DNA from: Gammaproteobacteria bacterium
GTDB taxonomy: Bacteria; Pseudomonadota; Gammaproteobacteria; Burkholderiales; Rhodocyclaceae
DNA length: 64,000 bases
Reading direction: 5' to 3'
NCBI GenBank assembly: GCA_018824085.1
Contig: JAHJHI010000051.1
Location: 124,001-188,000, forward strand
The notes under the pieces were generated by a model. That model saw nothing but the letters and a program-made list of their open reading frames with translations, was not told where the DNA came from and did not search any database. A program made the translations under genes and the position numbers. Shown in pieces: positions 11,583 to 57,561 of this stretch (its first letter is position 1; each line of letters begins with the position of its first letter).

Positions 11583-11604
11583 TCTACAGATTTCTGATGA
11601 GAAT

Positions 11605-11951: not shown

Positions 11952-11963
11952 GGAGCCGACGAT

Positions 11964-35579: not shown

Positions 35580-36176
35580 TCAATACAGCGGAACCACGAC
35601 ACCGACCACCTGCTCGGCCCGTACCAGGCCGCTGTCCTGGTAGCGCGAGTCGAAGGAGTCGGGGCTGGTGCCCTGCACGTAGTAGTGCCCGGGCGGGATG
35701 ACGGTGGGCGTAATCGGGTCCAGCGGACTATGGTCGTAGGCCTGCAGCTTGGCCACGCCGACCTCCTCGCCATTGATCGCCACGTGCCGACCGGCGACGG
35801 TCACGGCATCGCCCGGCAAGCCCCGTACGATCTTGAAGAAGGGCTGGCCGCGCAGCCCCGGGTAACGCGCCTGCGCCTCACCATCGAAGGAGAAGACGAT
35901 GAAGTCGCCGCGCCGCAGGGGGTGGGGGCCGTGCACCAGCCAGGCGATGCGATACGGCAGGCTGGGCGTCCAGTTGAAGAGCACGGGCAGCCGCGGCGTC
36001 GCATCGATGAAGAGCCGGGCATAGGCCAAGCCCCAGATCGCCAAGATTGGCAGGTAGAGAACCCAGCGCCGGCGCGCATGGCGCAGGAAGTCCGCAAAAT
36101 GTTTGACGACTCGCCGACCGCTGCCGGGGTTCGACGCGGCCCGCGGTTGCGCCTGTTGGACCGGTTCGGAATTCAT
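35580..36176 (-). CDS. S26 family signal peptidase of the conjugation system (TraF/TrhF type)
   Basis: 198-residue membrane peptidase, one helix at about 40-60. LepB-like boxes: NWTPSLPYR with the probable catalytic Ser, RGDFIVFSF, FFKIVRGLPGD with the general-base Lys, and GHYYVQGTSPDSFDSRY. Conjugation S26 enzymes of RP4 (TraF) and SXT (TrhF) process or cyclise pilin. The clear TraA pilin encoded upstream is the expected substrate. Overlaps trbI by ATGA. Confidence 0.87.
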   Translation of the reverse strand: MNSEPVQQAQPRAASNPGSGRRVVKHFADFLRHARRRWVLYLPILAIWGLAYARLFIDATPRLPVLFNWTPSLPYRIAWLVHGPHPLRRGDFIVFSFDGEAQARYPGLRGQPFFKIVRGLPGDAVTVAGRHVAINGEEVGVAKLQAYDHSPLDPITPTVIPPGHYYVQGTSPDSFDSRYQDSGLVRAEQVVGVVVPLY

Positions 36177-36541
36177 GGCGCGGCCACCTTTCTGCGCAAC
36201 TGCGCCGTCAGGTCGACCGTATTCGGCGTCGCCCCGGCCACGGCGGTCTTGAGGATCACCAGGCAGTTGCATTCCCGCGGCAACTCATCGAGGGCGAGCG
36301 GCAGGCGCTGAGCGAAGGCCCGGGCCATGACGAGCGCCTTCTGGCGGTCTTCTTCCGAGCTGGTTCTGGTGAGGAGTTGGGTGAACTCGGCTTCCTTGGC
36401 GCGGTACACCTCGGCCACATCGACCACACCGATGACCAGAGCCGGCCGCAGCACCCAGCGGTCGTAGGCTGCGAGCGCGGCGGACACCACGAACAAGGTG
36501 AGCAGGCCCTGGGTGAGCCATTGGGGAACGGTGGTCTTCAT
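36173..36541 (-). CDS. trbI: Type-F TrbI protein
   Basis: 122 residues with one N-terminal membrane helix (about 9-28) and a periplasmic domain containing DVAEVYRAKEAEF and a conserved final region. Matches type-F TrbI, which affects pilus outgrowth and retraction. It overlaps traC (ATGA) and lies between traC and the S26 gene, the same relative place as F trbI after traC. Confidence 0.82.
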   Translation of the reverse strand: MKTTVPQWLTQGLLTLFVVSAALAAYDRWVLRPALVIGVVDVAEVYRAKEAEFTQLLTRTSSEEDRQKALVMARAFAQRLPLALDELPRECNCLVILKTAVAGATPNTVDLTAQLRRKVAAP

Positions 36542-39105: not shown

Positions 39106-39112
39106 GGCGACC

Positions 39113-39700
39113 TCACTGCGCACGGTTGGTATTGGGCCCGGCGAACAAGGGCCGTTGCGGCAACATCGGCGCGGCCGGCGCGTTGGTGCCGGCGTTCGGC
39201 TCGGCGGTGGTTTCCGTTGCTGACTTTGGAGGCGCCTTGAGTGGCGCATAGGCGTCGCGGATCTGGCGCTGCACGTGGTCGATCAGCCACTGGCCGTTGT
39301 CCACCTGCACATAGACGTAGCCCTGGTCGTAGAGATCGCCATCGGCGTCTTCCCAAGGCTTGATCCACAAGCGCAGCAGGCGGGCCTGGGAACGCAAGGG
39401 GGTGGGCGTGACGGCCGTGTCGGCATCGCCGGTGGCTACGGACGATGGGGCGGGCAGGGCCGATTCGGGCGGATTCGCTTCGGATGCCTCTTTTCGCGGG
39501 GCGGCCGACCGTTTGGCCCGTTGGCTGGGCAGGTTGTTGTGGACGGCGTTGGCGTAGGTGCCCGACACCGAGTCGCAGGCGACGCCCTCGGGGGCCTTGC
39601 AGGCGTATTTCGAGTCGCCGCCCAGTCCGGACATATTCATGCAGGCGCCCAAGGGGAGCAGCAGGCAGAGGGCGCCGATGCGCAGCACGAGCGTCTTCAT
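39113..39700 (-). CDS. traV: TraV outer-membrane lipoprotein
   Basis: 195-residue lipoprotein: signal ending LLPLGAC with acylated Cys18, then [20 protein letters not shown], the canonical TraV N-terminal box. In F, TraV forms the outer-membrane core with TraK and TraB (VirB7 equivalent). Overlaps dsbC by ATGA. The Pro/Ala-rich C-terminus is variable. Confidence 0.92.
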
Positions 39701-40533
39701 GGCTGCTTCTCCGCGGTGGCTTGCGGCGCCGTTGGTGAAGTGATCTGCGCGAGCCGTGCTTCCAGCACCGCACGTCCCACGAAGCCCTCGGTGCGGCTGC
39801 CGTCCGCCCAGATCAGGGTGGGCGTGCCCTGGACGCCGAGTTGGTGGGCCAGTGCCAGGTTGCGGGCGATGGGGTGGTCGCAGGCGGCATCGGTCTTGAG
39901 CGTACTGTCGTCGCCGTGGAGCATCAGGCGCTGCCAGGCTTCTGCGCGATCTGCCGCGCACCAGATGGCGATCGGTTTTGCCTCGCCCTGGAAAGGTAGG
40001 AGAAAGGTGTAGATGGTTGTGCTGTCGAGACTGGCCAGTTCGGGTTCTAACTGTTTGCAGTAGGAGCAGTTGGGATCGCTGAAGACGGCTACCTTGCGTT
40101 GGCCATTGCCGCGTACCGTCTTGATCGCATCGGCGAACGGCAGTTGATCGAAGCGGACGGGGGCCGCCGCCGTGCGCGCGGTTTCCGGGGCCGATCCTCG
40201 GGCGGCATTCGCACTGTTGGCCTGCGCCAGTTTCGGGCCCGTGATGTCGCGCAGGGTCGCGGTATCGAACAGGCGGCCGAAGAGGAAGTAGCGCGGGTTG
40301 CTGGCCGAGACGTAGGCCACGTTGCCGTTCATCCAGACTTCATAGAGGCCGCCGATGGGCGAGCGGGTGACTTCGGAGAAGTGCGTGCCCGGATGCGCTT
40401 TCTGCAAGGCCGCCAGCAGGCGCTTTTCAACGGGCGTGGCGGCGTCGGCGCCGGCGAAGGTCCCGAGGAGTGTTGCGCTCAGGGCTGCGACGAGCAGGCG
40501 CCGGGGCCGGCGCAGGGGTTCAGTAGTTGCCAT
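39697..40533 (-). CDS. dsbC: DsbC-type disulfide isomerase of the transfer system
   Basis: 278 residues with a signal (about 12-31), a DsbC-like dimerisation region, and a thioredoxin domain with [16 protein letters not shown] (Cys156/Cys159) and cis-Pro GTPTLIW near 236. Conjugative elements with cysteine-rich TraN and TraU carry a dedicated isomerase here, as in SXT/R391. Overlaps traB by 14 bases and traV by 4. Confidence 0.93.
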
Positions 40534-41932
40534 CGTCGGAGGTCTCCAGATAGCGGGTTTCGGGGGAGTTCGGGGAGTGGGCGAGGCGTGCGGAAGACGG
40601 ATCGCTCGCCGTCATGGGGACGTCGATGCGCACGCCCTTGGTAATCACCACGTCGACTTCGCGGCCGGCATCCACCTCGATGACCGGGAAGGTGTTCTCG
40701 GCGAGCTTGATGTAGTACTGGGCCAGCCGGTCCAGCGCCTTGCCGACGCCGCTGCCGAGACCGGCGCGGTAGGCCTCGGCACCGGAGGCGCTGGCGACCG
40801 TGCCCAGCGCCGAGGTGCTGTATTCCGTCGACGAGGTGGCCAGGCCCTGGCCGATGCCGCTGACCACGCCGGCCAGCAGCGCATTGGCGAGCATCTGGCC
40901 CTGCTTGGTGACCAGCCGCCCGCGCATGCCGACCTTGCCGTCCTCGCCATAGACGCTGCCCTGGATCTTCACTTCCAGCGTGGCGCCGTCGGCGCGTACG
41001 CAGGACAGGCTCTCGGTGCGCAGGTAGGCGCGCTCGGAACTGATGTCGCCGTAGCCGGCTGCGATCACGAAGCACTCGCGGTATTCGGCGCGAAAGCGGT
41101 TGGGCAGGACCGAGTTGTCCGAAAGGCGGATCAGGACCGGGTGGGGGTTGGACTGGGACTGGCCGCCGGTTGGTGCATCCAGGCCGCCCAGCAGCGTGCC
41201 GCGGGTAAAACTCACGGGCAGGAAGGTGGAGACGGTCCGGGCGACAGCTTGCGAAGTGCCGCCCGGCGCGGGGTCCGCATTGACACCGGTGTTCGCGACC
41301 GGCGCGCCGGTTCCGGTGCGGGACCGGTCCGCGACGCTGATGCGCGTGATCGCGGGCTGCGGCGCCGCCAGCGATGTCGGGGGCCAGGTGTCGCCCGGGG
41401 CACCGCTGGGCATCGCTCCGGCGGGAGAACCCTTGGAAGGCGGCGGGGCGGGGGGCAGAGTCGCTGCCGGGGGCAGGGCGGTTGGCGTGGTCGTGACGGG
41501 GGTTGGCGCCGCCGGGGTGGCGGCCGCTTGCTGCGCGGAGGTGAGCCGCTGTTCCAGGTCCGCGAAGCGCTGCATGGTCTTCGCTTCAAAGGCTTGGGCG
41601 TTCTTGTTGAGCCGTCCTTGCTCTTCACGTTCGTTCTCGTACTGGGCGAGCTTGCGTCCGGCCGTGCCGACCCACTGGTCCACCGGATTGACCTGGCCGC
41701 CGGGCGGCATCACGCCGATGTTGGTGACCGCACTCGGTTGCCCGGTGGACGCTTGGGCGGCGCCGGTCTTCGGAGGGTTGCCGGTGAAGGCGAAGATCAG
41801 CCAGAGCAGCCCGACGCCGCCGACCAGGAGCGTCCCGAGCATGGCGTATTGGCGTTGCCGGGGAGAAAGGTGCTGCGACAGGCGCTGCGGCAAGCTGCGC
41901 AGGGCCTCGAACGACTGCTGCGGCGTGCTCAT
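40520..41932 (-). CDS. traB: TraB core-complex protein (VirB10 family)
   Basis: 470 residues. One N-terminal membrane helix (about 33-50), a Pro-rich periplasmic linker (about 125-190) and a C-terminal beta-domain with [17 protein letters not shown] and [20 protein letters not shown]. TraB bridges inner and outer membrane in the T4SS core. Starts at ATG 41932, overlapping traK by ATGA. Confidence 0.93.
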
Positions 41933-42822
41933 GGCGCCTCTCCTCGGCGGATCACGTAGACGCTGGTGCTCTCTCCGGGGCGCAGGTTGTGCTGCTCGAT
42001 ACTGACGCCGGCGACGCCGCCAGCCTCGCGATCGAACTCCGGTTCGGCCAGCACCATGGGGGCATTGCTGACGTTCTGCAGTAGGTACTTCTCGCCGATC
42101 AGGCCGCGTCCTTCGTACTGACGCACCAGCGAGAAGCGCGCCTCGATCCACAGGGGGACCGAGCGATGGGTCTCTTCGACCCGGACGTCGGGCGGCACCC
42201 GGTCCGTAGCCATCGCTACCAGCAGCGCCTTCATCGCGCGGATCGGGTTGGGTGCCGGTCCGGCTCCGGCCTGGGCCGCTGTAGCTGGCTTCAACGCCCT
42301 GGGCGTCTTGTCGCGAATGACGATGGTGTCGGCGGGCGTGTCCGCACGGCGCAATAGCAGTGTGTAGGTGGTGCTCGCCGACGAGACGAACAGGTTGATC
42401 GGTTTCACGGAATCGCCGACCGGGCGAACGTAGATTTCGCCCTTGTCGCGGTCGCACTCCAGCACGATCTCACCGGCCGGATTGATCGCCGAACTGATGC
42501 CGCTGCCGGGCGCTGTGCTGTTCATGCCCGGCGTGGCGGGAAGGGCCGTCGCCGCGCCGCAATGACTCGAATGGATGTTGCCGAACACGTCGGTGATCGG
42601 CGCCCCGTCGATGCGGATGCGGGTCGGCTCCTTGATCGACACGATGGCTTCGACCGACACGCCGTCGCTGGCCTCGACGATCTGCAGCGCGTGGGCGGGC
42701 ACGGCCGTCAGGGTGGCGATGGCGGCCGTTGCGGCGATGGCGGCACTCATCGCCCATCTGTGCCGAGGCACAAGGACGAACCGATGCGGGGATCGGGCTT
42801 GAGTAGGTTCAGTTGCCGGCAT
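41929..42822 (-). CDS. traK: TraK outer-membrane core protein (VirB9 family)
   Basis: 297 residues with a signal peptide (about 22-46, AAIATLTAVPAHA) and a TraK domain; DREAGGVAGVSIEQHNLRPG near the C-terminus is typical. Forms the outer-membrane ring with TraV and TraB. ATG 42822 lies inside the traE end (14-base overlap), with GGAG upstream. The long N-region before the hydrophobic core makes an internal start possible. Confidence 0.88.
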   Translation of the reverse strand: MPATEPTQARSPHRFVLVPRHRWAMSAAIAATAAIATLTAVPAHALQIVEASDGVSVEAIVSIKEPTRIRIDGAPITDVFGNIHSSHCGAATALPATPGMNSTAPGSGISSAINPAGEIVLECDRDKGEIYVRPVGDSVKPINLFVSSASTTYTLLLRRADTPADTIVIRDKTPRALKPATAAQAGAGPAPNPIRAMKALLVAMATDRVPPDVRVEETHRSVPLWIEARFSLVRQYEGRGLIGEKYLLQNVSNAPMVLAEPEFDREAGGVAGVSIEQHNLRPGESTSVYVIRRGEAP

Positions 42823-43375
42823 TGGGTATCTCCTTGAAACTCTTCAAATGCATGCGCGCACCGGCGTAGCTGAACTCGACCCGATAGGCCTTGAGGTCGT
42901 TGGCGGTCTCGAAGCCGTTGACCAGGGTGCGCAGGCGGCCGCGGATGACGATGCTCTGGCCTTCTTCGCTGGGCACCAGTTGCTGGGGCGCGAACACGGT
43001 GGCGGCGTTGATGCGCTTCAAGCGTTCGGCCTCCACTTCCTGCCGTGTCCTGAGCGGGCCGTACTGGTCGGGCTCGACGTAGCCGAGCAGGATGTCCTTC
43101 TTCCAGTCGATCGAAGCCGGCGTCACGTCGAGCACCAGCCAGGCGATGAAACTGCCCATCTGCTCGAGGTATTCGTTGCTGGCCTGGTCGCGGGTGACCC
43201 AGAAGGTTTTGTTGAGCGAGGGGGGTACGACCACGGTGCGCACCGTCCCGAGCAGGTTGAGGATCACCACCAGGGCGAGAATCTGGCCGGCAGCGAGCGC
43301 GCCAACCGCCAGGCCCAGCCCGCGATTGCGGCGCCGCATCTCCTTGATGTCGCCGTTGAGTCGTTCGAAGTCCAT
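42809..43375 (-). CDS. traE: TraE pilus assembly protein (VirB8-like position)
   Basis: 188 residues with a membrane helix (about 22-42) and a periplasmic TraE domain: VVPPSLNKTFWVTRDQASNE, EYLEQMGSFIAWLVLDVTP and YVEPDQYG. Essential for F pilus assembly. Shine-Dalgarno GGGAG lies eight bases before ATG 43375. Follows traL with 15 bases between. Confidence 0.94.
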   Translation of the reverse strand: MDFERLNGDIKEMRRRNRGLGLAVGALAAGQILALVVILNLLGTVRTVVVPPSLNKTFWVTRDQASNEYLEQMGSFIAWLVLDVTPASIDWKKDILLGYVEPDQYGPLRTRQEVEAERLKRINAATVFAPQQLVPSEEGQSIVIRGRLRTLVNGFETANDLKAYRVEFSYAGARMHLKSFKEIPNAGN

Positions 43376-43390
43376 GGGCTTTCTCCCTGC

Positions 43391-43690
43391 TTAGCCGACC
43401 ATGCGGCGGATGTGCGACGGCGGCGTGGCGCGCATCGCGGTCATCGGACTGGCGGGTAGATGCCAGTACAGCCAGTGGATGGCGAAGGCCGGGTGCTTGT
43501 CCGCCTTGAGGCGCGCAATCCAGCGCGAGACGAAGATGCCCATCGCCATGCAGACGGCGAAGGACAACTTGCTGCCGGATAGATAGCCGACGAAGAACAT
43601 GAACAGGATCGGCGCGGCGACATCGACATCCCAGAAGCCGATCTTCCATTGGTCATCGAGACGCCGCGGGATATAGGTGTCCGCTTGCAT
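43391..43690 (-). CDS. traL: TraL pilus assembly protein (VirB3-like)
   Basis: 99 residues: YIPRRLDDQWKIGFWDVD at the N-terminus is the TraL signature, followed by two close membrane helices (about 25-58) and HWLYWHLPA. AGGAG precedes the ATG. Small inner-membrane T4SS subunit. Confidence 0.94.
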   Translation of the reverse strand: MQADTYIPRRLDDQWKIGFWDVDVAAPILFMFFVGYLSGSKLSFAVCMAMGIFVSRWIARLKADKHPAFAIHWLYWHLPASPMTAMRATPPSHIRRMVG

Positions 43691-43718
43691 GTCGGTCTCC
43701 TGGGTGTCGATGCGAGCG

Positions 43719-44069
43719 TCAGATGACCGCGCCCATGATCGCGCCGGCGATCACGAGACCCACGGCGGCGAAGATGGCGAGGCCCACATAGAACAGGACC
43801 GGGCCGAAGTTGCGTAGCGCGGAAAGCGAGATGAGCGCGACCACGAAACCGACGAATCCGACCAGGGCCTTGATTCCCGGTCCGAGCGCGGCGATCTGCG
43901 TCAGGGCCGAGGTGAGCGGCCCGGTGATGCCGGTGAAGGCGACCAGGTCCAGGGCGTAGCCGGGTAAGGCGGTGCCGAGGCCGACGACGATCGTCGCCAA
44001 CAGCATCGCGACGGTCATCGGTTTGCGTGTGGCAACGCGGGGGGAAGAGACAAGCACTGCAGTGTTCAT
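43719..44069 (-). CDS. traA: TraA-type pilin precursor
   Basis: 116-residue propilin. A long leader (about 1-42, ending LPGYA-L) precedes a mature part of about 74 residues with two hydrophobic helices and a short polar loop, the F-pilin plan. GGAGG lies five bases before ATG 44069. The 5' region is free of other genes for 140 bases, so a separate promoter or mRNA end before traA is plausible. First of the run traA-L-E-K-B. Confidence 0.82.
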   Translation of the reverse strand: MNTAVLVSSPRVATRKPMTVAMLLATIVVGLGTALPGYALDLVAFTGITGPLTSALTQIAALGPGIKALVGFVGFVVALISLSALRNFGPVLFYVGLAIFAAVGLVIAGAIMGAVI

Positions 44070-44209
44070 GAAAACCTCCGGGCATGGGTGGAGCGTTGAA
44101 AGTGGGATAGGGGTGGGAAGGCGGGTGAGCGTAGGGATGCGCCTGCGGGTGGGAGCGCGAGCGCTCGACGGGTGAAAGACTTCGATGTGAGCGGGCGACC
44201 GGTGCGGCG

Positions 44210-44902
44210 TCATGGCAGGTGCTCGTCGGTCATCTGAAAGACCACCTCGGCCCGCCGGTTCTGCGTGCGGCCGGCCACAGTGTCGTTCGAGGCGATGAAG
44301 CAGCACGCCCCTCGAGCCTGCAGCGTCAGCGTGGCGGCCAGCGTCGGATGGGTCTTGCGGAGTTGGTCGCGAACCGCGATGGCGCGGGCGAGGGCCAGCG
44401 ATTCATTGAAGGCCAACGGCCCGGTGCTGTCGGTGCGGCCGGTGATCGTGATGCGGCGCACGTGGAGAAGGTCGCCCGTGGCCCGGTTTAGTTGCAAACG
44501 CGCGGCGGAGCTCAGCTTGGCGCTGCCCAGGCCGAACTGCACGATGACCGTGCGCGAGCTTTCCGCCTCCGTCGCACGGTCTTGCGCCAAGGGTGCGGGG
44601 GCGACGGATTCGGCCGGGGGGACTGCGGCTTCGCGCCCGATCGCCTGGCTGGGCGTTTCCGGCGCGAGTGTCTTGAGTGTGCGCGTGGGGCATGCCGGGG
44701 GCACGCACTTCGCGAAGCTGGTCCGGCGGCCGAAGTCGAGTTGGGCCAAATGCGGGGCCAGCTGCGCAGGCGTCGCCGCGTGCATCCCCGATGTGGGCTC
44801 GGCCGGCACCGGCGTGCGGAACAGGCTGCATGACGATGCGAGGGCGGTACAACTGGCGACGAGACCGAGCGCAGCGACACGGCGCAGGAAGTGATCTGTC
44901 AT
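44210..44902 (-). CDS. OmpA-family lipoprotein of the transfer region
   Basis: 230 residues. A signal with lipobox-like ALASSC (Cys25) suggests an outer-membrane lipoprotein. C-terminal OmpA/MotB peptidoglycan-binding domain about 115-225: VQFGLGSAKLS, ITGRTDSTGPLAFN and NRRAEVVF. Probably anchors the transfer apparatus to the cell wall. Overlaps the transglycosylase gene by ATGA, so the two act on the same layer. Confidence 0.85.
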   Translation of the reverse strand: MTDHFLRRVAALGLVASCTALASSCSLFRTPVPAEPTSGMHAATPAQLAPHLAQLDFGRRTSFAKCVPPACPTRTLKTLAPETPSQAIGREAAVPPAESVAPAPLAQDRATEAESSRTVIVQFGLGSAKLSSAARLQLNRATGDLLHVRRITITGRTDSTGPLAFNESLALARAIAVRDQLRKTHPTLAATLTLQARGACCFIASNDTVAGRTQNRRAEVVFQMTDEHLP

Positions 44903-45438
44903 GGCGAGACCCTCACCGACATCAGGGCGGGAATCGTCGTTGCCGTCGATACCAAGTGTTTGCCCAACTGCGCGCTGCGTTGTGCGGGTAACTGGCGGTA
45001 CACCCGCCGGGCGTATTGGGCGCGGGCCTCGACGCAGTCCTTGCCCTTGAGTCGCGAGCAGGCTGCGTTGTAGGCGCCGACGGCATCCCACGTCGCCCCC
45101 CGCCGAGAAAAGCTGTCGGCCAGCAGCCAAGCCCCGACCCGGATGTTGGTGCAGGGATCAAAGAGATCGGCTTCCTTGATACCGTGACGGGATAGGGTCC
45201 GCAGGTGGCCACTATTGATTTGCATGAGACCGATGTCGTAGGACCCGGTGCGCTGGAGGTGCGAGCGGTTGACCGCCCGGGGGTTCAAGTTCGACTCGAC
45301 TCGGGCAACGGCATGGAGCAGGTCGACCGAGACGCCGTAGCGCTGGGCCGCCTCCTCCCAGCAGGCCCGTGCCCAGGTGGGCGCGGTCGCCAGGACGGCC
45401 AAGGCAGCCAGGCCAGCAAAGTGCAGCGGCAGACGCAT
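44899..45438 (-). CDS. Lytic transglycosylase of the T4SS (VirB1/PilT-like SLT)
   Basis: 179-residue exported muramidase. Signal about 1-25. SLT domain with catalytic Glu48 in HAVARVESNLNPRAVN, then SYDIGLMQINSGHL and GAYNAACSR. It opens the cell wall for T4SS assembly. First gene of the leftward tra run as seen here. A perfect 8-bp dyad lies 60 bases upstream. Confidence 0.92.
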   Translation of the reverse strand: MRLPLHFAGLAALAVLATAPTWARACWEEAAQRYGVSVDLLHAVARVESNLNPRAVNRSHLQRTGSYDIGLMQINSGHLRTLSRHGIKEADLFDPCTNIRVGAWLLADSFSRRGATWDAVGAYNAACSRLKGKDCVEARAQYARRVYRQLPAQRSAQLGKHLVSTATTIPALMSVRVSP

Positions 45439-45497
45439 GAGTCACCTCTCCAACGAAACCGGAACGACCCGCCGGGGGGCGGGCAGCGAGGTCAGGG

Positions 45498-45519
45498 CCG
45501 TCTGCTAGGGTGCAGACGG
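45498..45519. repeat. Perfect 8-bp dyad upstream of the tra run
   Basis: CCGTCTGC (45498-45505) / GCAGACGG (45512-45519), loop TAGGGT, bracketed by GTCAGGG on both sides. No T tract on either strand, so more likely an operator or processing site than a terminator. Confidence 0.5.
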
Positions 45520-45631
45520 TCAGGGTCGGGGTCGGGTTGGTCCGGCGTCTAGCCGGGCGAGGTGATAGTGAGCGAGCAGGTCGGGAGCGGGTGGATGCCA
45601 GTTAGGGGCATCAGTCGAGGCGATGCTAGCC

Positions 45632-46129
45632 TCAGCCGGCCGGCGCGTTCCCGCCGGAATGGGAACGTTCGGCCATGTTGCGGCGTGCCTGCCGCAGGAT
45701 GGCGGTGCCCGAGCCATCCTCTGCCCGGCACAGGGCGACGCAGGCTGTCGTCAGTTGGTCGAGTTGGAACTTGGGGTTGGGGTGCCGGTTGGCGGGCGAA
45801 CGTTGAAGGTCCAACAGCAACTGGTACTGCTGCCGCCACATCGATTCGCGGCGGCGCGGCGTCTCGGGCGAGCGGAGAACAAGCTCGGTCCCGAGAAACC
45901 GGAAGATGCGACAGGGGGCATCCTGATGCTTGAAGACCAGCGAGACGCTGGCGCTGATGAGATCGGGAAAGCGGAAGGTCGGGGAGACATTGTCTTCGCT
46001 GCGCAGGAGGCGATAGAGCCAGTCGTGCTCCTCGAGCCAAAGGCGCGTCTCGATGACATCGTGAGCTTTATTCTCCTCCGAGGGAGGTGAGAGGTGATGC
46101 TGACGCGTCGCTGATGTGGCGGTGAACAT
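45632..46129 (-). CDS. ICE-associated protein of unknown function
   Basis: 165 residues, soluble, no signal or membrane helix. Has EEHDWLYRLL, RIFRFLGTELVLRSPETPR and QQYQLLLDL segments, and a C-terminal half with two cysteines (TACVALC). ATG 46129 has GGGGAAAG close upstream; a longer frame to 46174 lacks a ribosome site. I do not recognise the family. Codon use is like the tra genes, so it is probably part of the ICE backbone. Confidence 0.6.
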   Translation of the reverse strand: MFTATSATRQHHLSPPSEENKAHDVIETRLWLEEHDWLYRLLRSEDNVSPTFRFPDLISASVSLVFKHQDAPCRIFRFLGTELVLRSPETPRRRESMWRQQYQLLLDLQRSPANRHPNPKFQLDQLTTACVALCRAEDGSGTAILRQARRNMAERSHSGGNAPAG

Positions 46130-46640
46130 GCGGCTTTCCCCAGTTCTGTGGCGGCGTATTGCTCTTGCGAGCACATGACTGGAGGATAGGCAGCCGAGGT
46201 TGTGGTGTCTCGTGGGAATGGCGGACTTGAGAGGGGGATTTCGCTATCAGGAAATAGACCGCTAGAAACATTCCCCGTTGCATGACATATCGGATCGGAT
46301 TGATTGACCGCTGTGCATCACCGAGAGGACCTTTGACAAGGCGGGTCTGGCGACGGCACCTCGGCCTGAGCTTTGTCCAACGCTTGCCCGCTGGCCGCAG
46401 CTGGTGATCAAGCGCCACCGGCGTAGGGCAGGCGTCGAACAAACCTAGACCTGAGCTGCCGATGGTACCGATCCAATATTCGTCTGGTCTATACCCGATA
46501 GCAGCCGCCTCCTACATCGACCAGCCAAGCAATGGGCTTTGTTGGACGATTTCCGTTAGCATATTGCCTTCCTTTTTGGCCTGCGTATTTGTGCGCACAA
46601 GAAGGCTTTTTTGAGTTTTCATAAGGATTGCGGAGGAAAG
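46130..46640. other. Intergenic region left of the three-gene cargo operon
   Basis: About 510 bases, base composition shifting from G+C-rich to A+T-rich toward the right. No convincing gene. Near its right end GCCTTC (46566-46571) can pair with GAAGGC (46601-46606), followed by TTTTTT: a long-loop terminator or attenuator just before the operon. I see no clear -35/-10 pair. Confidence 0.5.
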
Positions 46641-47639
46641 GTGGCTGAGACAATCAATATCGGTGAGATAGCAACGAGGCTATCCAAAGACATCTTCAAA
46701 CACTTCTTGTGGACGAAGCATTCCAAACACGACGACAACTTCAAGTGCTCGAATCCCGAGCATAAGAGCGACGGCAAAGACCCCAAACCCAAGGAGTCGC
46801 ATCCTGGGGACGTCGTCTTCTGTTACGACGACCCTTACATCGGGAAAATGGTCTACCTTCATACAGACCTGAAAAGCTACGCTCAGAAGAGCATCACGTC
46901 CACCAAGCTCAGGGGAGCCTTCAAGTCATTGAGCATGACAATAGAGTGTGCCAAGGAATCTGAAGATTGGCGGAGCAAGTATTCGGTATTGGCAGATGAG
47001 GCCCACGAGGTTCGCGGATTGTTGTTTGTCCACAACCATGACAATAAATTCACCCAATCCTTCTCCGACACCATCGCAAAGATGGACCTGAAGAACCTCC
47101 CCCTTCCCGCCGGGGCAATCATCCATTTCCTTGGACCCGAAGACATTCAAAGACTGTACAGCATCGGCAACGACATCATCCGCCTACGGGATGAGGAAGA
47201 ACTTCCAAAGGAATACACCTTCTACTACCCGGATTTGGTGATGGTTCGCCGTCATGGAGACGGCGCAAGCCAAGCGGCAACCGTTGAGTCGCTTACTGGG
47301 CCATATCTCATCCTCCGGCACGGCGAGGCAACTAATTGCGCCCCCGGCTTCGTCATCTACTACAACCGGCCGGGCGCTAGCCCCGAGGAGTTTGAGTATT
47401 TCCTCGATTGCCTCTCTAGGTACCAGATGCTCGAGCGCGACCAGCAGATTCGCGTCCGGGTGACTAATGGCAGCACCATCGATGACTTGAAGTCGGTTTT
47501 TGATAAAGCCAAGAAAAAATATGTGAAGTCTTGGGGATTCGATCCGGCCCGAGAAGCTATTTTGGACAAAATTGGAATTGACCGAATTACAAGCGTAACG
47601 ACTACCTACAACCCAGGTGATATGGGGTGGCGCTCATGA
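46641..47639 (+). CDS. Unknown cargo protein A (possible nuclease-like N-terminal half)
   Basis: 332 residues, no membrane segment. The N-terminal half has HPGDVVFCYDD (Asp57) and VYLHTDLKSYA (Asp76-x-Lys78), which could form a PD-(D/E)xK-like core. The middle has EVRGLLFVHNHDNKF and IHFLGPEDIQRL; later come FYYPDLVMVRR and VESLTGPYLILRH. I do not recognise the family and the nuclease reading is weak. GTG 46641 was chosen for the GGAGGAAAG just upstream; TTG 46611 is in frame. Clearly A+T-richer than the tra genes. Next gene overlaps by ATGA. Confidence 0.6.
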   Translation: MAETINIGEIATRLSKDIFKHFLWTKHSKHDDNFKCSNPEHKSDGKDPKPKESHPGDVVFCYDDPYIGKMVYLHTDLKSYAQKSITSTKLRGAFKSLSMTIECAKESEDWRSKYSVLADEAHEVRGLLFVHNHDNKFTQSFSDTIAKMDLKNLPLPAGAIIHFLGPEDIQRLYSIGNDIIRLRDEEELPKEYTFYYPDLVMVRRHGDGASQAATVESLTGPYLILRHGEATNCAPGFVIYYNRPGASPEEFEYFLDCLSRYQMLERDQQIRVRVTNGSTIDDLKSVFDKAKKKYVKSWGFDPAREAILDKIGIDRITSVTTTYNPGDMGWRS

Positions 47640-48757
47640 AGAGAAGACTCCACGGCCCCTCTCTGTACTACGCATCCGACAAGAATGTCTTTGATGCCCT
47701 GAACCAGCACAAGGTCGACACCCAGACCATCATGGGCCTGTTTGAGCGACGGAACATTGTCGTGAGCAAGAAAACCCCCAGAGAAAATCTGGCGGCCTAC
47801 TTTGCGAGGCAGATTCACGACTACCAAGATCACAAGGATATTGCCGCCCGCCTTGGTATCGCCCCGAGACGGGAACGCATCACGTCAATGGATGTAAATG
47901 GAAATGTCGACAAGGACCACCTACAAGTCGCAGTCGAGCAACTCAAGGAAGAGTTGGAGAAGTCAGGTGAAGTCGTCCAGGTCGCTCGTGACGGCGGCAA
48001 GGTAAGCCTTACGATCCAGTATTCGACGGTGGATTACAAAGTCAGCGAGTTCGCCCAAAGGCAGGAGCGTGACGGCACTATCGAACTGATCAAAACAGAG
48101 GACGGATACACCGTCAGAAACACGCATAACGAATACCTGAACGACGTCACTGAAGAGTTGATTTCGAAACTCGAGAAGGCATCAGATACCAAACTCAGTA
48201 AGGTCACTGTCTCTCTCTTTGATGTGCCCTCCGCCCGACTTCGCTCGAAGTTCTTTCACGAGTTAGCCTTCAAGCTGCCCGGGTACCAACAAAGCGACGT
48301 TACCGCCGTGTATGTCTTCAAGGCTAAACCTGATGCGCTCGATAGTGATGAGGGGGGCGATGAGAATGGCGACACAGTAGATGCTGAGACCCATGTTGAG
48401 CGGGTGCATCTGCGCGGCCAAGGGGTAACCCGTTCTGAAATACTGAACGAGCTCCTAGACAAGGATGACTACTACATCACCAAGATTGCTTGGGGCGCCC
48501 GAGAAATTGCAGGCGCTGGCCATGACTACGATATTGAAGCGGCCTTTACTAACCCGAAGGACTGCACCGGGTTCTCGTTCATTTTGAGCGGCGTCTATCC
48601 GCTCGAGGACGGAAAGCTGGCTTCTCGCAGGCGTCCGCCGTTCAAATACGAGATAGATGAAATCTCTCTTGTTGTTGAAACCAAGGCGCGGGAGTTGGTG
48701 ACGCAACTACGCGAAGAGTTTAAGAAAATAAGCGTGGGAGACGGCGATGCTAACTAG
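47636..48757 (+). CDS. Unknown cargo protein B
   Basis: 373 residues, soluble and charged. The N-terminus (about 10-75) is a compact helical domain with VFDALNQHKVDTQTIMGLF and NLAAYFARQIHDY segments, perhaps DNA- or protein-binding. A central part with beta strands (VSLTIQYSTVDYKVSEFAQ) follows, and a strongly acidic linker sits near residues 230-250. No enzymatic motif is visible. ATG 47636 overlaps the upstream TGA, and its own end overlaps gene C by 11 bases, so the three proteins are made in coupled fashion and may form a complex. Confidence 0.6.
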   Translation: MKRRLHGPSLYYASDKNVFDALNQHKVDTQTIMGLFERRNIVVSKKTPRENLAAYFARQIHDYQDHKDIAARLGIAPRRERITSMDVNGNVDKDHLQVAVEQLKEELEKSGEVVQVARDGGKVSLTIQYSTVDYKVSEFAQRQERDGTIELIKTEDGYTVRNTHNEYLNDVTEELISKLEKASDTKLSKVTVSLFDVPSARLRSKFFHELAFKLPGYQQSDVTAVYVFKAKPDALDSDEGGDENGDTVDAETHVERVHLRGQGVTRSEILNELLDKDDYYITKIAWGAREIAGAGHDYDIEAAFTNPKDCTGFSFILSGVYPLEDGKLASRRRPPFKYEIDEISLVVETKARELVTQLREEFKKISVGDGDAN

Positions 48758-49427
48758 ATATCGTTGGTATCGCATCCAACTCCCAAGCGGGGCTTCGGAC
48801 TTTTCCGGCGTCATTGCCAAACATCCCCTTGTTGCAAATGCCAACCAGGGATTCATGAGGGTTGAGGGCTCATTGGGGGCATTCATCTATCGGTTCCTTT
48901 GGCGCTCAAAAGTCGTCATTGCGCAGTTCGACGACCACGGGACCCCGTCCTACCAGGAAGTCGCCACCGTCAACTTCACTGACTTTGCCATTGTCAGCAT
49001 CGAAGGGGTTACGTTCCTGCGGATAGAGAACGCCGGACGGAGCATCCGTGACCTGCTGAATGCCATTGAGGCTCTAGTGGGCCTTGGGTTCACGTGTAAG
49101 CCCGTAACTTTTGAAAACAGCAAGCCCACGACAGTGTTTGAAAAAATCGAAACCATCAAGCTGATTGGTCTGAAAGTTATTGGTGCAGTCTTTGGGAAGG
49201 ACCTCGTCGCACGCATGGAGTTTGCCTCGAAACAAGGCATCACTCTCGACAAGCTGACCATTCTGGAAGGCGTCCCTCACAAGATTGAGTCGGCCAGTTA
49301 CGAGCTGATTTATGAGGGTGTGAAGGGGCTGCTAGCTTTCACCTCGAATGGCACCGTAAGAGTCAGCGGCCAGCTCGCTCCGAGACTCATTCACTTGGTT
49401 GAACAGGACTTATCCAGAATAGCTTGA
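48747..49427 (+). CDS. Unknown cargo protein C
   Basis: 226 residues, last gene of the operon. It begins TRYRWYRIQLPSGASDFSG and contains short beta-rich segments, then an alpha/beta C-terminal half ending in VSGQLAPRLIHLVEQDL. No signal peptide, membrane helix or catalytic motif that I recognise. Its start lies inside gene B. It ends 79 bases from the convergent DUF4400 gene. Translational coupling and shared base composition say that A, B and C moved together. Confidence 0.6.
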   Translation: MLTRYRWYRIQLPSGASDFSGVIAKHPLVANANQGFMRVEGSLGAFIYRFLWRSKVVIAQFDDHGTPSYQEVATVNFTDFAIVSIEGVTFLRIENAGRSIRDLLNAIEALVGLGFTCKPVTFENSKPTTVFEKIETIKLIGLKVIGAVFGKDLVARMEFASKQGITLDKLTILEGVPHKIESASYELIYEGVKGLLAFTSNGTVRVSGQLAPRLIHLVEQDLSRIA

Positions 49428-49506
49428 TTGTTATGCGCATGACACTGGCAATCAAAGTGCACCTGTCTTTCGGCGAATCGCACCGATCTCGTCGCAGTGT
49501 AATGCC

Positions 49507-50130
49507 TTATCCACGCCGGTGAAAACACCCCAGCGCCCGCCCGGCCAGCACGCCGACCACTAATGGGACGCACGGCATCAGCAGCGGATGCAGCATCGCC
49601 GGCAGCACGAAGCCGATGACCGTCGCGCAGAGGATCACGATCCCCAGGCTGGCATACAGCGCGAACATTTCCGGATCGTGCTGAAGGAATTCCTTGGCCT
49701 TGATGAGCCGCGCCAATCCGCCGTCGACGACTGCAGCCAACACGAATACCGCCAACCAGGGCAGCCATTCGAGCAACGTGGACAGCCGATAACTGGCGAG
49801 CAGGAGCAGCGCGTCGACGGCACGGAAGTAGGTGTTGTTGAAGAGGCGCTGGTTGACCGAGGACATCTCCCGGGACACCGCGCCGTTCACGCCCGCTGGC
49901 GAAGGCGCATCCTTCGCGGAAGGAATCGGCGTGACTTGGGCCGTCGAATCTTGCATGCGCATCGCCCGATCCAGCATGCGGGTGGCGGGCTCGGCGCCCC
50001 AGTAAGCTGTGGCCGCCTCATGCTCGGCGCGTAGCTGCGCGAGGAAGCGCTCCGGGGGATGGGCCGACGGCACGTACAGCACCAGGACCAGCAGGACAAG
50101 CAACGACAACACGGCGACGGCGCGGATCAT
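49507..50130 (-). CDS. DUF4400 integral membrane protein of the ICE
   Basis: 207 residues with an N-terminal helix (about 3-20) and three C-terminal helices (about 112-135, 155-175, 180-200). Matches the DUF4400/TIGR03747-type conjugative-element membrane protein that follows traD in many ICEs. Function unknown; coupling with TraD is probable because ATG 50130 overlaps the traD stop (ATGA). An SVNQRLFNNTYFRAVDALLL segment is typical. Confidence 0.82.
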   Translation of the reverse strand: MIRAVAVLSLLVLLVLVLYVPSAHPPERFLAQLRAEHEAATAYWGAEPATRMLDRAMRMQDSTAQVTPIPSAKDAPSPAGVNGAVSREMSSVNQRLFNNTYFRAVDALLLLASYRLSTLLEWLPWLAVFVLAAVVDGGLARLIKAKEFLQHDPEMFALYASLGIVILCATVIGFVLPAMLHPLLMPCVPLVVGVLAGRALGCFHRRG

Positions 50131-52034
50131 GCGGTCGCCTTTCCCGGGGCGCGGCACGACTCCGCATCGGGATCGAGGATCGGAAACCGTCCCTTGATGA
50201 TCCGGCCGCCCGACACCGAGGCGAAGTACTGGAGGTTGGGCAGCTTGCCCAGCACATCCGCTGGCACCATCTCCTCAAAGCTCTCGGTGAGTTGGGTGGA
50301 ATAGCTCGACGAGAAGTCGCCCAGGTGGGCATCCGATCCGTGGCTCAGGCCCACACGCACCGTATGGATCGCCGTCTTGCCGAAGGTCTCGACCACGAAG
50401 TCCTGGGTCGGCCGGTCCTTGGTGCGCAGCGCGATCAGGTTGTTGAGGTTGCCCAGCGCCATGCGCGCCGCGTCCTCGCTACCCAGCCGCTTGGCCAGGT
50501 CCGCCAGGGTCTGCATGGCGCAGGTGGTGAAGATGCCGCCCTCGGCGCCCTTGTTGAGGATCTCGATCAGCGGCTGGTTGATGACGTTCGAGACCTCGTC
50601 GACGAACAGCGCGATGCGTCGGTAGCCGCCCAGGTTGTAGCGCATGCCGGCGCGCGCTGCCTGATCGGCCAGCGCCAGGGCGCCGATGGCCGAGGCGACC
50701 GACGGATCGGGCAGGGAATCCAGGCACATGTAGAGCACGTGGCCGGCGCGTTCGATTTTCTCGAAGTTCATGATGGGCCGTCTGTCGTCCGCATCGAAGG
50801 GATCGGGCGAGAGGCTGCGGCCCAGGTCGCCCGAAGTCAGCATCGACAGGATGGGCAGCAGGTTGGCGGTGATCTTCTGGTAGTGCTCGCGATTGTGGCG
50901 GAAGGTGCGCACCTGGGCATCGATCACCTTGTTGCGCTGGTTCTGGGCGATGTGGTGCTCGTAGTAGGCGACGAAGGCCATCAGGTCGGCGCTAGCCGCC
51001 TCCGACGGCCGTTTAATGTTGCCGCGATGGGCATCGTGCAGCAGCTTCTTCATGTCTGGCAGTTCGCGCCAGCCGACGCCCAGGGTCTGATCGTAGTAGC
51101 GGCGCAGCGAGTTCTCCAGCACCGGCTCGATGCCGCCCTCGATGTACTTGGTCAGTTTCATCAGGTTCGGCCGTTCTTCGATCTCGACCAGGCCCTGCAC
51201 TACGACATTGACGGCATCCCAGCCGAAGGCCGAGAAGGCGCCGGCCGTGTCCGGCGGCATGATCGACTGGATACGCGAGGCGATCTCGGTGGGCTTCTGC
51301 CAATTGAAGGTGAAATCCAGCCGTACCCCCCGCTCCGGAAAGGCCGGGTGGAATTCCATGAAGGTATCCGGCTCGCGGTAGTCGGCGCAGGCGCGCTCCA
51401 CGACCCGCTTCAGGCGCCGGCTGTTCTTCGGGTCGATGACGATCACCACGTCGCCGCGCCGGATTGCTTGGGTGATCAGGTTGGCGAGTGCCACTCCCTT
51501 GCCGGACTGGGTGGTGCCCACCAGCAACGTGCCGCCCTCGAAGTTCTGCAGCGGCCGGTGCAACGGGCCTTCCTTCGGCTCGACGCCATGAATGTAGGGC
51601 AGACCGATCTCGGCGTCCGGCTGGGGTTTGCTGTCGTAGCCCAAAAGTTGCAGCAGGCGCGGCGATACGGCGAACTCCCGGTAGTCGACCTTGGACAGTT
51701 CGTAGAGCCGTTGCGAATGCACGGGCTGCCATTCGAAGCCGAAGCCCAGGAACACTAAGGCCGGATCCTGGCACCACCGAGCCAAGTCGTCGGTACCGAC
51801 GACCTCGATGCCGCGCCCGCCCAGCGACGCCCGCAAGACCAGCATGCGCAGGGCCTGGGTCACCCGTAACACGCCCATTGCGAAGCAGACGAGCGCCAGC
51901 GGTAGCACCAATTGCCGGGGCAGAGTGCCGACTACGCCTACCCCCAGGAAATAGAGCAGCGCCAGCCACCAGGCGATGCCGGCATAGACCTCGTAGGCGC
52001 GGCGCCATGGCATCTCGTAGCGGCGTACCAGCAT
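50127..52034 (-). CDS. traD: TraD coupling ATPase (VirD4 family, SXT type)
   Basis: 635 residues; links the relaxosome to the secretion channel. Two N-terminal helices (about 15-36 and 41-57), Walker A GTTQSGKG at 173-180 and Walker B IALFVDEVSN near 460. Also a conserved TKDRPTQDFVVETFGKTAIH stretch near the end. ATG 52034 follows the relaxase stop by one base and has a GGAGGGAA upstream. Relaxase, coupling protein and DUF4400 form one operon. Confidence 0.94.
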   Translation of the reverse strand: MLVRRYEMPWRRAYEVYAGIAWWLALLYFLGVGVVGTLPRQLVLPLALVCFAMGVLRVTQALRMLVLRASLGGRGIEVVGTDDLARWCQDPALVFLGFGFEWQPVHSQRLYELSKVDYREFAVSPRLLQLLGYDSKPQPDAEIGLPYIHGVEPKEGPLHRPLQNFEGGTLLVGTTQSGKGVALANLITQAIRRGDVVIVIDPKNSRRLKRVVERACADYREPDTFMEFHPAFPERGVRLDFTFNWQKPTEIASRIQSIMPPDTAGAFSAFGWDAVNVVVQGLVEIEERPNLMKLTKYIEGGIEPVLENSLRRYYDQTLGVGWRELPDMKKLLHDAHRGNIKRPSEAASADLMAFVAYYEHHIAQNQRNKVIDAQVRTFRHNREHYQKITANLLPILSMLTSGDLGRSLSPDPFDADDRRPIMNFEKIERAGHVLYMCLDSLPDPSVASAIGALALADQAARAGMRYNLGGYRRIALFVDEVSNVINQPLIEILNKGAEGGIFTTCAMQTLADLAKRLGSEDAARMALGNLNNLIALRTKDRPTQDFVVETFGKTAIHTVRVGLSHGSDAHLGDFSSSYSTQLTESFEEMVPADVLGKLPNLQYFASVSGGRIIKGRFPILDPDAESCRAPGKATA

Positions 52035-52035
52035 C

Positions 52036-53751
52036 TCAGCTTCCCTCCGCCGGTGGTGCGGTAAAGCCCGCCAGATCGAGTCCGCTTACGCAGCGCGGAT
52101 CGAGCACGATGCCGACGGTGGGGTTGCCGTTGAATTCACGCGACAGCGTCGGCGGGCCATTGCGGTTGGGTTTCACCAACAGGTTCGCCTCGGTGAGGGC
52201 ACGCATGGCGACGGATGGCTGGACGCCGCGCCGGCCGAATTCCTCCAGCGGTACGAATACTCCCTGGGCGACGGTGCAGACAGTGGGCGGACCCATGCCA
52301 TCGTTGAGCGTGCGAACGGCTTCGGCCAGGGCGTCGCGCACGACCGGGTTCAGACGCATCGGGGCTTGCAAGGCGAATGTCGCCGAAGGCGGTGTTGTCG
52401 CCGGTTCCAGCGAGAGTGATTCGGGTGTTTCCTCGACCGACGTCACGCGGACGTCACTCTCGGCGGGCGGCTCGGACGGCGGAATGAGCGAAAACTGGGT
52501 GCCGCTCTTCACCGGTGCCGGCGGTGGCATGGATGGAGGCGTCTGCCGCGCAACTGGCGCAGACGCCGGCGCCGGCTTGAATTCCAGTGCTTGGGGCAAG
52601 GCGACGGGGGGCGGTTCGATTCCCGCGAGGAGAATGGCCGGGGTCGAGAGCTTGACGGCTTCCAGCGGGGCCTTGGCGCCGGGCGGCTGGATGGACCAAG
52701 TCGCGCGGCCCGCTGCCGCCGATTCGAACACGCCGGCGGCCACCAGCAGTTCCAGCATCGTCTCGGGCGCCTTGGGGATGCCGGCCAGTTGGTCGGCTTC
52801 GAGTAGTTGGTGCACATCCTCGGCGGCGCCGGGCCAGACCAGGAACAGACCATCCTGTCCGAACCACAGGCGCGACTTCTCGCGGTTGGCTATCCAGGCC
52901 GAGTTGCCGCTGGTGAGCCGCCGCAGGGCGTCGACCAGGTAGCGCTCCAGGTGCGAGCCGTATTGCGGTGAGCCGTAGCGGTCGGCGCTGGCGACCAGAT
53001 TGCGGTCGATGACCAGCGCCAGCGAGCGGCGGACCAGTTCGTCGAGGATGTTGTGGTCGCGATAGACCGGAATGCCGCCGATGCTGGCCAGCAAATGCGG
53101 CACGATGACTGCGTTGCCCTCGGACAGGTCGGCCATCACCGCGGGCGGCACCACATGGGGCAGGGCGAACAGGCCCAGGCCGCGCGCCTCGACGGCTTGG
53201 GGCCGCCAGCGCAGGAAATAGCGCTCGCTGCCCCGGGTCGCCAGCCAGTCGGCCAGCGGCCGCAGGAAGGCCGGCCACGCCTCACCGGCCGCATCGGTGA
53301 CGATGATATGGCTCATCAGCCGGTGCAATTCGCAACACAGCCCAGCGATGAAGGTTGCATGGCGCCAGCGCGGTTCCAGTTGGCGGCGTGCCGAGATGCT
53401 CATCCGCCCCGAAAAAATGTGTGCGTCGGTGCCTTGCAGGCTGAAGAAAGCGGTCTCTAGGCCGAGCCGAAAGAGGCCGCCCGGCTTGCTGAAGTAGTTG
53501 TCGGCGGTCGCCGGCAGCAGATGCACGCAGGCGGCGTAGCGGCGCACCAGCATTAGGACATCTCGCTCGAAGCTGTCCCGGTCGATGCCGTAGCACAGCT
53601 TGATGCGTGCGATCAGGTCTGCTTCGCCGGCCAGCAGATCCTCGACCGGCACGGCGGCGAACCCTGGGTCGGAGGCGGGGTATGAAGTGACAGGCGTTGG
53701 CGTGGCGGGCATGGCGGTACGGCGATGCCGGAAAGAATGCGAAGTAGGCAT
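52036..53751 (-). CDS. traI: MobH-family relaxase TraI
   Basis: 571 residues. N-terminal TraI_2 domain (about 30-330): HLLPAT near 77, KPGGLFRLGLETA, and LEPRWRHATFIAGLCCELHR. A Pro-rich linker (about 380-450) precedes a C-terminal winged-helix-like TraI_2_C domain ending with GIVLDPRCVSGLDLAGF. MobH relaxases nick oriT in SXT- and IncC-like elements. I do not see the usual HD pair after the conserved GLC region; ELHR stands there. Start 53751 is uncertain; ATG 53712 is an alternative, with no strong ribosome site for either. Confidence 0.85.
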   Translation of the reverse strand: MPTSHSFRHRRTAMPATPTPVTSYPASDPGFAAVPVEDLLAGEADLIARIKLCYGIDRDSFERDVLMLVRRYAACVHLLPATADNYFSKPGGLFRLGLETAFFSLQGTDAHIFSGRMSISARRQLEPRWRHATFIAGLCCELHRLMSHIIVTDAAGEAWPAFLRPLADWLATRGSERYFLRWRPQAVEARGLGLFALPHVVPPAVMADLSEGNAVIVPHLLASIGGIPVYRDHNILDELVRRSLALVIDRNLVASADRYGSPQYGSHLERYLVDALRRLTSGNSAWIANREKSRLWFGQDGLFLVWPGAAEDVHQLLEADQLAGIPKAPETMLELLVAAGVFESAAAGRATWSIQPPGAKAPLEAVKLSTPAILLAGIEPPPVALPQALEFKPAPASAPVARQTPPSMPPPAPVKSGTQFSLIPPSEPPAESDVRVTSVEETPESLSLEPATTPPSATFALQAPMRLNPVVRDALAEAVRTLNDGMGPPTVCTVAQGVFVPLEEFGRRGVQPSVAMRALTEANLLVKPNRNGPPTLSREFNGNPTVGIVLDPRCVSGLDLAGFTAPPAEGS

Positions 53752-53791
53752 TCTTCGGCCGGCTATCTCGCTTGTCGCGCTGAAACGGGAC

Positions 53792-54430
53792 CTATTCCGA
53801 GGGGCTATCGTCTTCGGCCTCGGGGCTGAGCTTGTGAAACAACGCGAGCATGCCCAGTTGGCGCTCGGTCATGTCGAGGGCAGGGCGAGCCGGGTAACAC
53901 GCTTGGATGCGATGGTCCAGGTGAAAGCGTTCCAGCAGCTTGCAGAAGGGGCAAGGTTCACCGCGGTGCGCTACGGTGCCGACCGCAGCAATGAACTCGC
54001 AGCCGCACCCGGGGCAGGTCAGCACGGACAGCGTCGGTGCGCTGGCCAGCCAGATGCCATCGATATAGGAGACGAGGTTGAAGGCCCGGTCCAGGCTGAT
54101 GCGGTAAGGCGGGACCGTGGCGGCCTGGTAGGCGCGGTAGGCGAAGACCAGGGCTTCGCCGGCCGCGAGTCCCTGGTTGCGCAACTGGCGGTACCTGGCG
54201 CCAATGAGGCAGGCGTCGGTCCGCAGGATGAGGTTGGCGCCGTGGTACCACTCGGCCGAGTCGGGGGCGCGTCCGCGCGGGATGGTGTGGGCATCGGGGA
54301 AGAAGAGACTCTGCACTTGGCGCGGCGGGATGCCGGTGATGAGGTGGATCGTCTTCAGCCGTGCGCCGAGCGCCGCCAACTGCTTCGCCAGTTGCATGGC
54401 GCGCAGCTGCCGGTCGCCGCGCGTCGGCAT
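53792..54430 (-). CDS. FlhC/SetC-like transcriptional activator
   Basis: 212 residues resembling FlhC: an N-terminal helical part (QLAALGARLKTIHLITGIPP) and a C-terminal zinc site with Cys139-x2-Cys142 and Cys160-x2-Cys163. In SXT/R391 and IncC, FlhC-like SetC or AcaC joins a FlhD-like partner to switch on all transfer operons. The upstream neighbour here is a FlhD-like gene, supporting the same role. Located directly upstream of traI. FlhC of the host flagellum is the alternative, but the tra context argues against it. Confidence 0.82.
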   Translation of the reverse strand: MPTRGDRQLRAMQLAKQLAALGARLKTIHLITGIPPRQVQSLFFPDAHTIPRGRAPDSAEWYHGANLILRTDACLIGARYRQLRNQGLAAGEALVFAYRAYQAATVPPYRISLDRAFNLVSYIDGIWLASAPTLSVLTCPGCGCEFIAAVGTVAHRGEPCPFCKLLERFHLDHRIQACYPARPALDMTERQLGMLALFHKLSPEAEDDSPSE

Positions 54431-56550: not shown

Positions 56551-57561
56551 TCATGCCGCACGCGGCGCCTGGGTTTCCAGGCGTTGGCGCCAGACATCGG
56601 CCCAATCGGTGCCGGCATGCTTGGGCAGGAACACCCGCACTTGCCGCCGACCGCTATTTTTCTCTTCCCGCTTCAACCGGCGCGCCAGGGCAAACGCAAA
56701 GGCCTGGCCGGCAAAGTCGCCATCGGCGTCGTTGTCGGCATAGATGCAGACCTTGCGCACCGAATCCGGCAGCCACAGCTTCTCCAGGTTGCCGGCGTTG
56801 AGCCCGGCCCAGACCGGTTTGCCAGTCGCCAGATGCAAGGCGAGGCCGGTCTCGATACCTTCGCTGATCGCCAGTTCCTCGGTCGCATCGAACAAGCGGA
56901 CCGCGGCGCCGTTGATCCCGGCCGAGAGCACCTTCTTCGCATCGAGCGCCGCGAGCTTGCCGCCGTCCCGCAGATAGGTCCGGTGCAGCGTCACGGCGTG
57001 GCCGTCGGCACCCTGAATGCAGGCGAGCATCGCCGGGTACTCGGCCACCTTGCGTGACTTGCCGGCGGCTTCCTTCTGGTAATAGCCTAGGGCAGGGTGG
57101 AAGCGCAGCACCTTCGGGTACACCGGCAGGGCGAGACCCCGTCCGCTCAGGTAGCGATCGACTTCGTCGCCCACCGTTACCGCTTTTGCCTCGTTCCAGA
57201 TGCGCTGGGCCAACTTCTTCATGCGCTCGGCCGACGGCTCGCAACTGCGGGGCGGTGCCGTCACCGGCATCATCCCCAGACAGCGCTCGACGTCACGCAG
57301 CGCGGTGTAGAAATCCACGCCCATGATGGCTTGCAGCAACTTGAAGCCGCCACCCGGGCCGCATTGGCGGCAGTGGTAGTTCCCCTCGCCGAACTTGTCG
57401 GTGTACTGGAACCGATCCGTGCCACCGCACAACGGGCAAGGCAGGTTGCGCCGCTTGAGGATGCGTTCATCCACGCCCAAGCTCGCCAGGATTTCCGTCC
57501 ACCGGCCATGGGCACGCTGCTTGACCGCTTCGATGCGGGCTGCGTACTCACGATCCTGCAT
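56551..57561 (-). CDS. Toprim primase with N-terminal zinc ribbon
   Basis: 336 residues. Zinc ribbon CPLCGGTDRF ... HCRQCG (Cys42, 45, 64, 67), then a primase linker and a Toprim domain with Glu234 (ISEGIET) and Asp276/278/280 (ADNDADG). Probably primes complementary-strand synthesis after transfer or supports ICE replication. No helicase domain is attached. ATG 57561 overlaps the upstream ATPase gene by 14 bases and has GGGAG; the longer frame starts inside it. Confidence 0.9.
   Translation of the reverse strand: MQDREYAARIEAVKQRAHGRWTEILASLGVDERILKRRNLPCPLCGGTDRFQYTDKFGEGNYHCRQCGPGGGFKLLQAIMGVDFYTALRDVERCLGMMPVTAPPRSCEPSAERMKKLAQRIWNEAKAVTVGDEVDRYLSGRGLALPVYPKVLRFHPALGYYQKEAAGKSRKVAEYPAMLACIQGADGHAVTLHRTYLRDGGKLAALDAKKVLSAGINGAAVRLFDATEELAISEGIETGLALHLATGKPVWAGLNAGNLEKLWLPDSVRKVCIYADNDADGDFAGQAFAFALARRLKREEKNSGRRQVRVFLPKHAGTDWADVWRQRLETQAPRAA

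Follow-up and report, generated by a model that had tools for sequence, protein, structure and literature searches.

A divergent Rst_3HP operon carried as cargo by an integrative conjugative element, and a possible clamp-and-nuclease mechanism for it

Rst_3HP (hereafter 3HP) is a described anti-phage system of three genes, Hp1, Hp2, and Hp3. It is included in DefenseFinder, the authors of which count it among mostly prophage-borne systems and credit Rousset et al. with some of these (PMC9090908). In the original report, a system was found to protect against phage P1 (Rousset et al. 2022, PMC9122126), the copy studied there not being the one treated here. We infer that this system is 3HP because of its name and its genomic place, between a portal gene and a replication-endonuclease gene; the trio sits between the same two genes in a Klebsiella P2-type phage and in an E. 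coli plasmid. No mechanism was found in the passages of the published accounts that name 3HP. Here, a three-gene operon (A, B, and C, 46641..49427) was analyzed in the window, i.e., the whole stretch of 64,000 nucleotides from a Gammaproteobacteria bacterium of the Rhodocyclaceae (contig JAHJHI010000051.1, positions 124,001 to 188,000). It is almost certainly a divergent copy of 3HP. It is carried by an integrative conjugative element as variable cargo, and on balance, and by analogy, we lean towards a reading in which B and C would clamp DNA and license the putative nuclease A. The operon in itself is an ordinary cargo item; its interest lies in the anatomy of its parts, which suggests a mechanism.

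The PADLOC models for Hp1 and Hp2 match the first two proteins nearly end to end. Hp1 covers residues 2-329 of A (E 7.2e-68), the product of gene A (46641..47639, + strand, 332 aa), and Hp2 covers residues 13-356 of B in its 376-aa reading (E 2.8e-40), the gene itself being placed at 47636..48757 (+ strand, 373 aa). The third gene (C, 48747..49427, + strand, 226 aa) encodes a divergent Hp3: its product falls below the PADLOC Hp3 model, with no match, but a profile made from 74 distant relatives detects it at 6.2e-24, which places it in the Hp3 family. These distant relatives are the representatives (defined below) with an A less than 50% identical to that of the window; at a fixed database size of 5000, their profiles also recover A of the window at 5e-116 and B at 5e-103. 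The identity of C is 11-21% with the distant representatives and 40-60% with eight near ones. At a threshold of 0.01, Hp1 matches A in all 83 representatives and Hp3 matches C in 66 of them, so the 17 loci in which the third gene is missed may look incomplete to software. The proteins also fall in the PHROG families phrog_7059 (A, 4e-104), phrog_6531 (B), and phrog_5850 (C, 2.2e-9), and the phage record PQ189388 labels a homologous trio Rst_3HP Hp1, Hp2, and Hp3. With curated Pfam and NCBIfam models, none of the three window proteins scored above cut-off; a sequence search of the PDB left A and C without a match, and the two rows it gave for B, at 0.52 and 3.4, look like chance. The initial annotation had taken the operon for defence-like cargo, and the match to a described anti-phage system bears this out.

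The three genes form a fixed unit. A search with A gave eight phage records and one with B seven plasmid records; nine of these 15 loci were opened, and the trio is annotated in order in all nine. A search with an alignment of A confirmed 125 relatives on genome contigs and 101 on viral contigs, the best 80 of each being used, and the locus set amounts to 170, window included. Profile searches place B and C downstream of A, and in the same orientation as A, in 161 of these 170 loci; the window and the nine opened loci, from which the B and C profiles were built, match by construction, and the other 151 independently. In the remaining nine loci (three with B alone, six with neither B nor C), the contig ends no more than 1138 bases beyond A. 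Collapsing the 161 complete loci at 85% identity of A leaves the 83 representatives, across which pairwise identities correlate strongly (r 0.91 for A-B, 0.75 for A-C, and 0.78 for B-C, the largest value in 500 permutations being 0.09). The correlated identities mean that A, B, and C co-diverge, though common descent alone yields the same pattern. Because the gene order recurs and the identities correlate, the trio is more than a chance association, and the neighbourhood survey called for by the initial annotation thus finds it co-occurring elsewhere. Among the carriers, the filamentous Pseudomonas phages 54-4 and 99-2 (L003 and L005) hold 3HP trios and are uncommon carriers for a defence cassette of roughly 3 kb. 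Another locus (L011), a contig of 3542 bases, has an A 99% identical to that of the window and ends within the same neighbour gene; it is filed under a metagenome-assembled genome named Caldiserica, probably through a binning error.

Protein A appears from its sequence to be a PD-(D/E)xK-type nuclease-like protein, distantly related to GapS4a of the GAPS4 system. The core first proposed for it, Asp57 (46809..46811, +) with Asp76-Leu77-Lys78 (46866..46874, +), holds up as a putative active site: D57, D76, and K78 supply the conserved Asp and the (Asp/Glu)-x-Lys expected of such enzymes, and neither D57 nor the D, L, and K of the motif vary across the 83 representatives. Near the N-terminus, E3 is a glutamate in 82 of the 83, with one gap. 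Three further residues, C36, H54, and C103, are likewise invariant in 83/83, with an additional His lying between C36 and H54 in every sequence; this Cys/His set could form a metal site. The NCBIfam GapS4a model reaches A of the window at 8.7e-11, scoring 41.6 bits where the cut-off is 270, and matches A of 39 of the 83 representatives at 0.001.

GAPS4 loci were opened in one genome with a match above cut-off and in two plasmids (L171, L176, and L177); in each, GapS4a is followed by a gene encoding 372-386 aa. In hhalign comparisons, A pairs with GapS4a (97%, 208 columns) and B with the second GAPS4 gene (91%, 255 columns), whereas the crossed combinations reach 0.2% and 0.1%. Each GAPS4 profile is built from three sequences, of which two are close, and hhalign values from single comparisons are approximate. 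For C, no counterpart was seen in the second GAPS4 gene. Since A resembles GapS4a and B resembles the adjoining gene, with the crossed pairs unmatched, the two systems appear to be branches of a single one in which C was gained or lost. The three GapS4a proteins retain the Cys/His set as C36, H53, and C105. Of 274 genomes searched in the class, one exceeds the GapS4a model cut-off (L171), the window's own genome staying below it, as do the 398 genomes searched in the phylum, and no GapS4a relatives were seen in phage records or, in one single-sequence scan, in viral contigs. A search of the available literature found no paper linking 3HP to GAPS4, nor one on GAPS4 itself. GAPS4 reportedly senses DNA ends, a claim that is not used here.

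The initial annotation recognized no motif in either B or C, which stands for curated sequence families above cut-off and fails for structure, as both have a recognizable predicted fold. The models are confident (pLDDT 92.2 and pTM 0.85 for B; pLDDT 93.9 and pTM 0.87 for C). B is predicted to consist of an N-terminal domain of four helices (residues 15-73, 47678..47854, +, from DSSP of the model) followed by an RdgC/CENP-LN-like domain (residues 79-368, 47870..48739, +), while C would have an RdgC/CENP-L-like fold without the N-terminal helical domain. In Foldseek searches, CENP-N entries head the rows of B, and Iml3 comes third for C. The resemblance of RdgC to CENP-L/Iml3 has already been published. 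CENP-L/Iml3 and CENP-N/Chl4 are described as two different members of a single fold family, of which just one carries an N-terminal helical domain (PMC5777823). No RdgC match above chance was seen for B or C, and in Pfam scans of 83 members each, RdgC is absent among the best 25 of 41 families for C and the best 25 of 108 for B. Pfam CENP-L matches one of the 83 C proteins, at 0.0074, and none of ten C proteins rescanned with Pfam was that match; run on 48 genomes, the CENP-L model gave weak matches in five, with controls also matching in three of 14 genomes. Pfam DUF4518 matches 14 of the 83 B proteins (best 1.5e-5), and in one genome the DUF4518 hit lies at the position predicted for the N-terminal helices of L028 B. 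Other weak Pfam matches scattered across the 83 representatives look like chance.

Put together, these parts suggest a testable mechanism for 3HP, for which none was located in print. B and C would pair into an asymmetric ring or clamp round double-stranded DNA, analogous to the self-pairing of RdgC and to CENP-L with CENP-N in the inner kinetochore. Loading would take place on invading DNA, possibly at a free end onto which the clamp can thread, and nuclease A would then be recruited or switched on to cut that DNA; the N-terminal helical domain of B may contact DNA or A. While the family, the fixed unit, the co-divergence, and the invariant motif of A are direct observations, the folds of B and C are predictions, and the pairing of B with C, the encirclement of DNA, the trigger, and the cutting by A are all put forward conditionally. 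Several results weigh against this scheme. The TM-scores are modest (C with RdgC 0.57/0.45 and with Iml3 0.38/0.39; B with CENP-N rows 0.20-0.25 by query length), a profile comparison of B with C shows no similarity between the two, and B is acidic (pI 5.4, with 9.0 for C). The three GapS4a sequences read S76-x-K78, without an acid at position 76, and their active site may therefore differ from that of A. Furthermore, likeness between predicted folds does not by itself show function.

To another account of a defence role we assign a real though clearly smaller chance: B and C could sense or regulate A by protein contacts, without encircling DNA, for instance by keeping the nuclease inactive in the absence of a phage protein. 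It is countered by the fold search, in which B and C separately rank RdgC or the CENP-L/N group first, and by the retention of several basic positions (R4, R6, and R98 of C; R39, R49, and R145 of B), each basic in at least 89% of the representatives with a residue there. A non-defence function is improbable. The same nuclease and clamp might serve plasmid or element maintenance, or act against competitors such as rival plasmids, and the copy in the window and some relatives do lie on a conjugative element or plasmids; the described system, however, protects against P1 and is mostly prophage-borne (PMC9122126 and PMC9090908, respectively), and anti-plasmid and anti-phage roles are in any case compatible. 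Finally, the initial annotation's new defence system, which would sit well with a C below the Hp3 model and with three proteins outside curated Pfam and NCBIfam families, was rejected as very improbable, given the confident Hp1 and Hp2 matches to a described system, the membership of C in the Hp3 family, and the phage record that names the trio Rst_3HP.

As for the operon itself, its layout agrees with what was first described, namely three overlapping, A+T-rich genes opposite to the transfer genes. The best start of A is the GTG at 46641, preceded by GGAGG, the mechanical open reading frame (ORF) start being the TTG at 46611. A and B overlap by ATGA (B starting from the ATG at 47636), and B and C by 11 bases. 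The neighbouring ORFs (44899-45438, 49507-50157, 50127-52034, and 52036-53751) are all on the - strand; the neighbour names transglycosylase, DUF4400, TraD, and TraI are labels from the initial annotation. The G+C content of the operon is 0.522, versus 0.666 in 36001-46000 and 0.659 in 49514-54000. A promoter scan returned 0 promoter-like sites, and terminator-like sites numbered five versus 2.9 expected, every one within genes.

That the operon occupies a variable cargo site, as had been proposed, is confirmed by relatives of the element, seven of which were opened (L198-L204). In the first of them (L198), positions 40000-46249 and 49514-50231 of the window align at 93-94%, and 891 bases with one 253-aa ORF take the place of the window's 3264. 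The cargo interval replaced in relatives is thus 46250..49513 (no strand), as delimited by the alignment breaks against L198 and by the ORFs of L198-L204. Two relatives (L202 and L203) align on both sides of the site, with 883 and about 2200 bases between, and four others (L199, L200, L201, and L204) align within the 11-12 kb fetched only on the side 49505-50258, beside other large ORFs. A, B, and C are absent from the fetched stretch of all seven. In L199, L200, L201, L203, and L204, the 3HP site, beside the homologue of 49507-50130, holds other cassettes, several of which have ORFs above 1000 aa, and the site is worth mining. In L204, the gene next to the site is present as a full copy (11549-12299) and again as a 276-base piece (535-810) some 10.7 kb away, as if cargo had entered by recombination with duplication.

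A single-sequence search with C in 199 genomes sampled from the family gave one match, the window's own; the A profile matched two of 61 relatives. A genome of the window's genus has another trio (L205) in a different setting (A 1.5e-115, B 1.3e-94, C 1.6e-30). Elsewhere in the same element, a 1728-aa ORF (18961-24150, -) matches the PADLOC candidate PDC-M54A at 5.7e-16 over residues 17-402, and Avs4 weakly (0.00032), which makes it a second defence-like cargo gene. Weak PADLOC matches to RTasDnaG-like (4.3e-6; 56551-57594, -) and mad8 (1.1e-9; 50127-52031, -, presumed TraD) probably reflect shared domains alone.

Compared with the described 3HP, the locus has three genes in the same order, the Hp1 and Hp2 matches, a C in the Hp3 family, and a mobile-element setting; it differs in a C too divergent for the PADLOC Hp3 model and in lying on a conjugative element rather than on a P2-type prophage. 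The predicted folds of C and of residues 79-360 of B resemble ring-forming, DNA-binding RdgC, but RdgC has one subunit where two different ones are found here, and C has 226 aa versus about 302 in RdgC entries. In the models, B shares with CENP-N an additional N-terminal helical domain, which is missing from C as it is from CENP-L, although neither B nor C has convincing sequence similarity to these proteins. GAPS4 shares A (as GapS4a) and B (as the adjoining gene) in the same order, but it has two genes rather than three, A is far below the GapS4a cut-off, and GapS4a has S-x-K where A has D-x-K. A wider proposal, which we hold only tentatively and consider rather doubtful, is that 3HP is a DNA-surveillance machine in which B and C, as an asymmetric RdgC-type clamp and a bacterial counterpart of the CENP-N:CENP-L heterodimer, thread onto invading linear DNA and load a PD-(D/E)xK nuclease, with GAPS4 as its two-gene relative and such mobile anti-phage systems as a possible source of the kinetochore CENP-LN module. 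The fold assignment links 3HP with GAPS4 and suggests that the DNA-binding pair of the kinetochore has two-subunit relatives in bacteria.
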